DNA of 35,188 bases. Origin: a virus. The DNA is taken from positions 1 through 35,188 of the IMG/VR virus record IMGVR_UViG_3300042308_000496; one strand, 5' to 3'. The position numbers were made by a program, and so were the translations under genes. Below are positions 24,108 through 34,100 of this stretch, piece by piece (the stretch's first letter is position 1; the number at the start of each line of letters is the position of its first letter). The notes under the pieces are model-generated. The model was not told the origin of the DNA and did not search any database. It saw only the letters and a list, made by a program, of their open reading frames with translations.

Positions 24108-24135
24108 AACCTATTCATAATGAGTAGGTTTTTTT
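24108..24135 (+). terminator. Strong terminator at the end of the late operon
   Basis: A stem pairs about 24108-24117 with 24121-24130 (one G-U), with a tiny loop, ending in a seven-T run at 24129-24135. It separates lysis genes from the replication block. Confidence 0.85.
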
Positions 24136-24184: not shown

Positions 24185-24214
24185 TTGTTAATTAAAAAAG
24201 AGTGTGTATATTTG
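24185..24214 (+). promoter_or_regulatory. Bacteroidetes-type early promoter
   Basis: TTG at 24185-24187, a 19-base spacer, then TATATTTG at 24207-24214: the best full match to the Bacteroidetes -33/-7 consensus on the + strand. It follows an AT-rich stretch (24136-24200) and would start the replication operon about 15 bases before the ATG at 24235. Confidence 0.8.
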
Positions 24215-24234
24215 TAAAACAAAAGCGAAAGAAA

Positions 24235-27266: not shown

Positions 27267-28280
27267 ATGGAAAACAAAGTAAAAGATCAATTAGTAACAG
27301 AAAATTACGCAATCTATAACTCAGATTGTATGTTAGTAATGCCTACATTAGAAAGTGAAAGCATTGATTTATCTGTTTATAGTCCACCATTTGCAGGATT
27401 ATACAATTATTCAAGTAGTGAAAATGATTTTTCTAATTGTGAAAGTAAAGAACAATTTTTAGAACAATATGAATTTTTAATTAAAGAAATTTCAAGAGTT
27501 ACAAAACCAGGACGTATAACCGCAGTACACTGTACAGATGTATTTGACAATACATGTAGACTATGGGACTTCCCTAATGAGATTGTTAGACTTCATCAAA
27601 AATATGGCTTTGAATATCGTAATCGTATTACAATTTGGAAAGAACCTTTAAAGGTTAGAATGAGAACAATGGTACAATCTTTAATGCATAAATTTATAGT
27701 TGAAGATAGTACAAAATGTTTTACTGCTATGCCTGACTATGTTTTAGTGTTTACTAAAAAAGGTGAAAACAAAGTGCCTGTTACTCACGAGTTTGGTATT
27801 AATCATTATGCTGGTGAAGTTCCAATTTTACCAAATATTTTAAGAGCTTGGAATAATGCTAATAATACAGATTTTAACGAAGTAGAATTATGGGAACATT
27901 TAAACTCAATAAATGAAGATAATAAAATAACTAAGTTGAATCATTATATTTGGCAACGTTACGCGTCTTCTGTATGGGATGATATTAGAATTGATAATGT
28001 ATTACCATTTAGAGATAGTAAAGAGGAGGACGATGAAAAACACGTACACCCTTTACAATTAGATGTAATTGATCGTATTGTTGAACTTTATTCTAATCCT
28101 AACGAAGTTGTATTAACTCCTTTTATGGGTGTAGGTAGTGAGGTTTATAGTCCTGTATCAATGGGTCGTAAAGCAATTGGTATAGAGTTAAAAGATAGTT
28201 ATTTTAAACAAGCTACAATAAATTTATCACTAGCCGATAAACGATTTAATAAAGTTGCTAAACAAGAAACTTTATTCTAA
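27267..28280 (+). CDS. DNA methyltransferase, beta-class (N4-cytosine or N6-adenine)
   Basis: A 337-residue enzyme. Catalytic motif IV SPPF lies at 39-42 after NSDCMLVMPTLESESIDL. The AdoMet-binding motif I, FMGVGSE followed by GRKAIGIELKDSYF, comes near residues 286-310. Motif IV before motif I is the beta-class order. SPPF/Y points to N4-cytosine or N6-adenine methylation; the target cannot be read from sequence. It is likely paired with the helicase upstream and may protect phage DNA from host restriction, alongside the Mom-like enzyme. No restriction gene is adjacent, so a solitary (orphan) enzyme is likely. Confidence 0.9.
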   Translation: MENKVKDQLVTENYAIYNSDCMLVMPTLESESIDLSVYSPPFAGLYNYSSSENDFSNCESKEQFLEQYEFLIKEISRVTKPGRITAVHCTDVFDNTCRLWDFPNEIVRLHQKYGFEYRNRITIWKEPLKVRMRTMVQSLMHKFIVEDSTKCFTAMPDYVLVFTKKGENKVPVTHEFGINHYAGEVPILPNILRAWNNANNTDFNEVELWEHLNSINEDNKITKLNHYIWQRYASSVWDDIRIDNVLPFRDSKEEDDEKHVHPLQLDVIDRIVELYSNPNEVVLTPFMGVGSEVYSPVSMGRKAIGIELKDSYFKQATINLSLADKRFNKVAKQETLF

Positions 28281-28303
28281 TTAAAAAAGATTTATTATAT
28301 TTG
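28271..28303 (+). promoter_or_regulatory. Promoter of the structured RNA
   Basis: TATATTTG at 28296-28303 is a perfect -7 element. TTTA at 28271-28274 stands 21 bases upstream as a -33-like element, inside the 3' end of the methyltransferase gene. The first stem of the RNA starts about five bases later, at 28308. Confidence 0.7.
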
Positions 28304-28307
28304 TAAA

Positions 28308-28399
28308 AGTTCGGATCTCAAACATAGTGAACTAAAAGAAATTGAAAACCCTATCAATGACGTAGACGTGAGATCCCTACAGATTTGATGGGGTTTTTT
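28308..28399 (+). ncRNA. Candidate structured RNA with loop-loop (kissing) pairing
   Basis: About 90 bases with three nested pairings. Hairpin 1: 28308-28312 with 28329-28333 (5 bp). Hairpin 2, the terminator stem: 28345-28357 with 28385-28397 (13 bp, one G-U), ending in the T run 28394-28399. The loop of hairpin 1 (28313-28320, GGATCTCA) is perfectly complementary to TGAGATCC in the loop of hairpin 2 (28369-28376). That is eight pairs forming a kissing complex or pseudoknot. It has its own promoter and begins at the first stem, so it looks like an independent small RNA rather than a leader. No family I know matches. Base 28400 onward is ordinary spacer until the ATG at 28426. Confidence 0.7.
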
Positions 28400-28425: not shown

Positions 28426-28635
28426 ATGAAAAATGAATTTTATCAAATTCAAGAACTTAATTTAAACATTAAGTTGAGAGACATTTCGAGTTATAGGCTT
28501 GATGGAGGCATAAAAAACGCTCCAATAGAATTAATCAAATGTTGTATTGTTGTAAAGCCTAATAGTATATATTGGTGTGATAAATCACATTATTATAATC
28601 TTAACAAAATCTTCTATAGCAATGAACGGGTATAA
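28426..28635 (+). CDS. Small protein, function unknown
   Basis: A 69-residue protein starting MKNEFYQIQELNLNIKLRD. Beta-rich with several Cys and aromatic residues (IKCCIVVKPNSIYWCDKSHYY). It lies between the structured RNA and the replication initiator gene, whose start overlaps its last 14 bases. Read-through of the RNA terminator, or a separate promoter, would be needed to express it. I do not recognise a family. Confidence 0.6.
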   Translation: MKNEFYQIQELNLNIKLRDISSYRLDGGIKNAPIELIKCCIVVKPNSIYWCDKSHYYNLNKIFYSNERV

Positions 28636-29329
28636 TTTAATAAGGGATTGGTACAACTATAAGTTTGATAATCCAAGTAAAGTTAAAGCGATTCATTCTG
28701 ATTTCTATTGTTATTTAATAGATTTATGGAATAGATTAGGTCAAAAGAATGAATTTGGACTTCCTACCACTGTAACTATGGAAGCATTAGGTATAGGCTC
28801 TTACAATACATACAAAAAAACTTTATCTGATATAATTGAATTTGGTTTTGTTAATATTATAACTGAAAGTAAAAATCAACATCAATCTAAAGTTATAGCC
28901 CTATCAAAAAATGACAAAGCAACTGACAAACCACTTGATAAAGCAACTATAAAAGCAACTGATGAATCACTTGATACCATAGATAAACAAATAAACAATA
29001 TAACAAATAAACAAAAAACAATATCATTTGCTGAACGCAAAAAACTTTTTTTAGATTGGTTTAATCATAGAATATTAATTCATACAGGAAAAATAGGAAG
29101 GTTTAAAGTATTAGACAAAGCAACCGAAAACAATTTAAAAAAGGTATTAGATGTAAAGTATAATAATCACGAGTTAGAATATGCTTTTAAGAATATGTAT
29201 AGCAATCAATGGGTAAAAGATAATAATGCTTTGAATCCTACTCATTTTTTAAGAATTGCGAATTTAGAAAAGTATATGAATATGGTTGATAATTCAAATA
29301 CTTATACACCAACTATTGAACTTAATTAA
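28622..29329 (+). CDS. Phage replication initiator / helicase-loader-like protein
   Basis: A 235-residue protein starting MNGYNLIRDWYNYKFDNPSK. Residues 20-85 form a winged-helix replication-initiator domain well known in Bacteroidetes phages (FYCYLIDLWNRLGQKNEFGLP then MEALGIGSYNTYKKTLSD). A Lys/Asp-rich linker with short repeats (DKATDKPLDKATIKATDESL) leads to a C-terminal helical domain (KNMYSNQWVKDNNALNPTHFL) like DnaD-type loaders. It probably opens the origin and delivers the RecA-fold helicase encoded two bases downstream. The ATG at 28622 is preferred over the upstream in-frame start at 28577. Confidence 0.75.
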   Translation: MNGYNLIRDWYNYKFDNPSKVKAIHSDFYCYLIDLWNRLGQKNEFGLPTTVTMEALGIGSYNTYKKTLSDIIEFGFVNIITESKNQHQSKVIALSKNDKATDKPLDKATIKATDESLDTIDKQINNITNKQKTISFAERKKLFLDWFNHRILIHTGKIGRFKVLDKATENNLKKVLDVKYNNHELEYAFKNMYSNQWVKDNNALNPTHFLRIANLEKYMNMVDNSNTYTPTIELN

Positions 29330-33912: not shown

Positions 33913-33960
33913 AATACTATAATAGACTAAGTAAAGAAAGTAATTAAGGTTAAATTTGCT

Positions 33961-34055
33961 TATAACGTTTTCGGGCTTGGCGTTAGTGCCACCTTGCACG
34001 AACTTTAATTTTAGCACTAAACTATCTTGTGGCATTACGCCAAACCCGTGTTATA
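33961..34055. repeat. attC-like imperfect palindrome 1
   Basis: Outer boxes TATAAC (33961-33966) and GTTATA (34050-34055) are inverted complements. Inside, a long imperfect stem pairs 33973-33991 with 34030-34047 (GGGCTTGGCG / CGCCAAACCC-type) with one extra base on one arm, around a 38-base centre. Outer boxes, inner boxes and an extrahelical base are the layout of integron attC sites. The boxes differ from the consensus GTTRRRY at the fifth position. It is notably richer in G/C than its surroundings. Confidence 0.65.
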
Positions 34056-34100
34056 GGATAGTTTTATTTTTTGTGGGTTGGCTTAAACAAATTTAAAAAT

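Follow-up and report, generated by a model that had tools for sequence, protein, structure and literature searches.

In phage lambda the late leader, which consists of the promoter pR', the 6S RNA and the terminator tR', is subject to Q-dependent antitermination. The rep leaders of pT181 and pIP501 are antisense-RNA attenuators of replication genes. In the phage c4 antisense RNA (RF01695) and the P4 CI RNA, both leader RNAs, complementary loop segments control the same transcript. Type III toxin-antitoxin systems (ToxIN) follow the order promoter, pseudoknotted RNA, terminator and ORF, and the HK022 put and EAR antitermination RNAs modify the polymerase for downstream terminators. Here we compare with these systems a structured RNA encoded in a 35,188-bp IMG/VR virus record from a tailed phage, the whole of which we call the window.

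Like the lambda late leader, the window RNA combines a promoter and a short terminated RNA with candidate read-through into genes that have no promoter of their own. It differs from it in that it belongs to small units of the early/replication region with a conserved kissing fold, for which neither a Q gene nor a qut site was identified. With pT181 and pIP501 it shares a leader terminator upstream of replication genes and hairpin loops able to kiss. Here, however, the loop partner lies in the same RNA, neither an antisense promoter nor a counter-transcript was found, and no pre-emptor helix is conserved. In contrast to c4 and P4 CI, the window RNA has no Rfam match and its complementarity is located inside the fold instead of being directed to a separate target site. 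The order of elements is that of ToxIN, but each element is a single unit without tandem repeats, and no match to a ToxN-like endoribonuclease was found among the downstream genes (helicases, initiators, HNH, orphans). As for HK022 put and EAR, the nascent RNA is structured and promoter-proximal; here the fold includes the terminator itself.

The structured RNA comprises about 92 bases on the plus strand (28308-28399). Upstream of it the sequence TATATTTG at 28296-28303 (+) reads as a promoter -7 box of the TAnnTTTG type, and relatives carry the same box at the same position. Since the Bacteroidota sigma-A -7 box in Flavobacterium spans -12 to -5 (PMC9723704), transcription is predicted to start at 28308, the first base of P1. 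Based on the fold and on covariation, this hairpin (28308-28333, +) pairs AGTTC at 28308-28312 with GAACT at 28329-28333, and its loop holds the 5' kissing strand GGATCTCA (28313-28320, +). An A-rich linker follows (28334-28343, +), the subfamily consensus of which is about TTAAAGAAATT; the linker motif AAA[AG]{2}.[AG]?.TT is present in 44 of 88 elements compared to 7.5 in shuffles. The remaining part (28344-28399, +) is an intrinsic terminator, again supported by fold and covariation, with the P2 stem formed by 28344-28357 and 28385-28398 and a T run at 28394-28399. Enclosed by P2 (within 28358-28384, +) are an internal loop of the tandem G.A type, TGAC at 28358-28361 opposite AGAT at 28381-28384, and the covarying hairpin P3, GTAG at 28362-28365 paired with CTAC at 28377-28380. 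P3 displays the 3' kissing strand TGAGATCC (28369-28376, +) in an apical loop of 3+8 nt, i.e. in the terminator loop and outside the terminator stem. The strands GGATCTCA and TGAGATCC are exactly complementary and join the P1 loop to the P3 loop in a kissing helix of 8 bp, for which both sequence and covariation provide evidence. An earlier note made from the sequence alone had listed the promoter-like sequence, a 5-bp hairpin close to it, the terminator hairpin, the 8-base complementarity between the loops and the lack of a reading frame within the RNA. All of these were found again, and the inner hairpin P3 is an addition to the structure given there.

Computed without the pseudoknot, the minimum free energy is -24.2 kcal/mol (z = -2.9 versus dinucleotide shuffles). 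For 44 relatives the mean estimated energy of the kiss is -11.2 kcal/mol, compared to -4.3 kcal/mol for the P1 region and -16.8 kcal/mol for the terminator, such that the kiss should be energetically strong enough to matter. Two other candidate features were set aside. A sigma-70-like site on the minus strand within the RNA misfits Bacteroidota promoters and faces away from the element. A DNA cruciform is unlikely, as G-U pairs are tolerated (frequently in P2) and the feature occurs in a fixed relation to the promoter and to the direction of the gene.

The nearest annotated-phage counterparts of the window helicase and methyltransferase genes are those of the Flavobacterium phages hattifnatt and snusmum. 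Downstream of the RNA, an ORF of 69 aa (28426-28635, +) starts 27 nt past the terminator, with no promoter in the gap. It is an orphan, being devoid of Pfam or PHROG matches, and no relatives were obtained when it was used as search query. This ORF separates the RNA from a gene of 235 aa (28622-29329, +), which the earlier note named replication initiator; it matches no Pfam or PHROG family, so the name stays putative. The window helicase gene is preceded by a bare promoter without a kissing element. The promoter region 28278-28308 recurs as a near-copy of 31 nt (87%) at 24189-24219, just past a terminator at 24108-24130, where it stands as a bare promoter before a gene.

Loci that were retrieved through the methyltransferase hold relatives elsewhere in their genomes, which differ in sequence and share the fold. 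In an alignment of ten of these relatives (A3), 84% of the cells of the whole structure are paired and 53 are two-sided, compared to 20.7 in shuffles, none of which (0/500) reached 53; the signal is lost when the pairing partners are slid. Pairing in the kissing helix amounts to 96%, 6 of 8 pairs showing two-sided changes, and RNAalifold, which is restricted to nested pairs, selects this helix itself. A covariance model built with the kiss left unpaired (E up to 1, the E-values being rough due to short calibration) provided 14 new plus-strand matches. In 13 of them the loops match perfectly over 6-9 bp, and the 14th (E 0.3) appears to fall within a gene. A DNA pattern fixed on the 5' side only (TCTCAC) retrieved 58 contigs with 44 distinct elements, and the terminator loop contains GTGAGA in all of these (44/44). 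At the unconstrained position beside this core all 44 elements are paired and each of the four Watson-Crick pairs occurs; at the next position 35/44 are paired.

A larger alignment of 54 distinct sequences from other phage contigs (A5) is 96% paired overall, with at least 94% for each helix. It contains 378 two-sided cells compared to 105 in shuffles and at most 60 in slid controls. Two-sided changes occur in all pairs of P1 (5/5), P2 (10/10) and P3 (4/4, 94% paired) and in 6 of 8 pairs of the kissing helix (96% paired); many rows were selected for the 5' TCTCAC, so that the kissing core varies less than in a free sample, while P1, P2, P3 and the kissing positions beside the core are unaffected by this selection. 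Ranked by covariation, the first of all column pairs belongs to the kissing helix, and the first 18 fall without exception into P1, the kiss, P2 and P3; no alternative (antiterminator or pre-emptor) helix covaries among these 18. Thus the compensatory change in relatives that had been proposed as a check was found for all four helices, including the loop-loop pairs. An example is provided by one locus of hattifnatt and snusmum, where GTGAGACG/CGTCTCAC in one and GTGGAACG/CGTTCCAC in the other differ by two compensatory changes in otherwise similar RNAs. A T run of at least 5 is present in 43 of 44 relatives, compared to 6 of 40 gene-upstream windows. Diversifying selection on the kissing strands was considered and found unsupported: in close pairs these strands change no faster (0.061 vs 0.074 per site).

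To scan for further elements we required an exact TAnnTTTG box, a 5' segment and a terminator with a loop matching that segment. With thresholds tuned on the same data and dinucleotide shuffles as control, 113 places were found in 164 loci (1.68 Mb), compared to 3 in shuffles. This enrichment and the strong compensatory change in relatives indicate that the window structure does not arise by chance, and the comparative sequence analysis confirms the window RNA as real and strongly conserved. P1 is absent in some elements (L045, L011), so that the constant feature is the pairing of the RNA 5' region with the terminator loop; the kissing and loop sequences themselves differ widely. Elements are carried by the isolates 11b (33621), hattifnatt and snusmum, by FCV-1 of F. 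columnare (40344) and by Polaribacter phage P12002L (34477, minus strand), in the latter upstream of a primosomal gene. In hattifnatt9-1, which infects Flavobacterium sp. LMO9, elements are located at about 9,360, 13,299 and 14,334 (MN812207). Since these are isolated phages with known hosts, the RNA class is open to testing. Scans of phages 6H and phi12:1 gave no element, and Bacteroides phage B40-8 gave a weak match only. In the genomes examined the elements lie on the early, replication side. Among 299 genomes of one host family the window-type model matched once, on a small contig, suggesting that the element is essentially phage-borne.

Rfam 15 gave no match for the window at E up to 1 (including the pistol ribozyme, guanidine-II, c4, Flavo-1 and Bacteroidales-1), in line with the earlier statement of no known family with this layout. 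For the ten loci with relatives it provided only DUF805b, which adjoins one element and lies outside it; this DUF805b RNA (RF02914; L026:1012-1044) lies immediately past the kissing element, within the leader of the gene that follows. The exact pattern of the window RNA has no match in viral contigs, and BLASTN provided none for the relative L118 in phage records or for the window RNA in plasmid records. A published description of this RNA class was not found in the open-licence literature, which is no proof of absence. The elements thus appear to represent a large RNA class in viruses of Flavobacterium-type bacteria, apparently undescribed so far.

A co-directional ORF starts within 150 nt past the terminator in 110 of 113 elements (median 22 nt), and a promoter box between element and downstream gene was found in none (0/113). 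The same loci contain 62 other terminators with a co-directional gene behind them, of which 28 have a promoter in the gap, the gaps being longer (median 85 nt). The scanner cases without an ORF turned out to be false positives or to possess an ORF of 49 aa. Related phages carry, at the same place upstream of the helicase gene, either a bare promoter or a promoter with an element. Relatives of the 235-aa gene (L085-L090) all have an RNA with pairing between a 5' segment and the terminator loop upstream, with differing RNAs and small ORFs; in L089 and L090 the flanks are common to both and RNA and ORF are different. The downstream genes belong to the families DUF6291, Lin1244_N, BT4734/PriCT, DUF3987, KilA-N and HNH, or to none. 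A role in replication control, which had been suggested earlier, agrees with the initiators and helicases that are common downstream, but the link is weak, as HNH nucleases, KilA-N proteins and many orphans are found there as well. A family of 70-80 aa orphan proteins with an end like TAIKLSRELKKQIAL recurs behind elements (L079, L086, L090, L122, L106), often with an extra leader of about 25 nt of the type AGTTATCGGTAATCTTTAAACCGTTAT.

The arrangement thus consists of a promoter, a terminator and a co-directional gene without its own promoter in between, as for an attenuator or leader. The earlier note had considered the RNA as independently transcribed; the adjoining promoter and terminator agree with this, but the surroundings, i.e. 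the co-directional promoterless gene, indicate a 5' leader. Most likely the RNA controls the output of the following gene. We consider it rather probable that it is a 5' leader acting as a transcription attenuator, which was among the roles suggested before and is the best supported of these; direct support for the decoy RNA or the ligand sensor, also suggested, is absent. The best reading is a conditional or leaky attenuator in the 5' leaders of replication and accessory genes. It builds on what was observed, namely a conserved structure with a T run, the promoter box and the gene order. RNA polymerase would start at 28308 and form P1 at the extreme 5' end. When the terminator hairpin emerges, the apical loop of P3 would kiss the P1 loop over 8 bp, providing a compact RNA of about 92 nt that ends at the T run. 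A constant or regulated fraction of the transcripts would escape termination and extend over the 69-aa ORF, the putative initiator of 235 aa and further genes downstream. Termination would be partial or conditional, the kiss may stabilise or gate the terminator, and a trans factor or the cell state may set the read-through. As no alternative antiterminator helix is conserved, a classical two-state switch in cis is probably excluded, and regulation, if any, would act via the kiss or a trans factor.

It speaks against an attenuator that the same RNA can precede unrelated small ORFs, which a gene-specific regulator would not account for: the near-identical RNAs of L118, L132, L148 and L149 stand before such ORFs. 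Furthermore, in compact phage genomes a nearby co-directional gene is expected for many intergenic RNAs anyway, the short gaps leave scant space for a promoter, and no ligand, protein or trans RNA that controls read-through was found. The near-identical RNAs before unrelated ORFs would rather fit an independent small RNA, in which the terminated RNA of about 92 nt is the product, stabilised by its paired 5' and 3' ends and acting in trans on phage or host targets, with the gene behind being incidental. Its own promoter, P1 at +1, the strong terminator and the compact fold agree with such a role. We regard it as possible but unlikely, since a promoterless co-directional gene is nearly always close behind, the position upstream of helicase and initiator genes is kept across very different RNA sequences, and the variable kissing and loop sequences offer no fixed target seed. 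Gene context and the specific T run favour the leader attenuator. The T run also speaks against a 5' mRNA stabiliser or insulator, in which the folded leader blocks decay or upstream transcription and the T run is of minor importance: protection from decay does not need it. Such a function is therefore improbable, although the hairpin at the predicted start and the strong stem that closely precedes the start-codon region would suit it.

As each RNA holds both complementary strands, the loops of a released RNA could also pair with nascent leaders of the same type, as for the phage immunity RNAs c4 and P4 CI. This trans self-regulation would set termination and make it sensitive to dose or superinfection. 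Elements of one locus never share a kissing 6-mer (0/16 pairs), and 18 viral contigs that were searched whole carry one window-type element each. However, the expected sharing is only about 4%, such that the orthogonality is not significant, and the kissing strands of close pairs change no faster. Trans self-regulation thus appears highly doubtful. The covariation would fit kissing within one molecule and between copies alike. A tentative extension of the attenuator reading is a new widespread class of Bacteroidota-phage RNAs in which the terminator would be controlled by a kiss with its own 5' end or between copies (dimers), with each leader answering only to its own loop code.

The elements represent a recurrent, strongly conserved RNA architecture, which probably acts in the control of replication and accessory genes and was apparently overlooked in aquatic phages. 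Should termination be gated by the kiss, the attenuator logic would be new and its loop pairs could easily be re-coded, which would benefit the design of synthetic regulators as well as the study of early gene control in phages of Bacteroidota.

Some further observations were made along these loci. By eye, additional leaders with pairing between a 5' segment and the terminator loop were seen outside the tests, in L072, L076 and L079 upstream of the helicase as well as in L077, L091 and L095. Their pairs are CCGCCAAG/CTTGGCGG, GTAGAG/CTCTAC, TGCGACACT/AGTGTCGCA and TTGCGC/GCGCAA, and some of these leaders lack P1. A second match in the window, at 33951, does not belong to the kissing class, being one long nested hairpin of -39 kcal/mol. 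At 33951-34065 a large inverted structure of very high stability (TATAACG..GGGCTTGGCGT / ACGCCAAACCC..GTTATA) comes after TAAATTTG; it overlaps AAACTATC/GATAGTTT and is weakly and partially matched in hattifnatt. The same phage helicase is also present, at 67-72% identity, on MAG contigs labelled Campylobacteraceae, Gallionellaceae, Dependentiae and Proteobacteria (L093, L096, L097, L098), which may be of phage origin and assigned to the wrong organism during binning.
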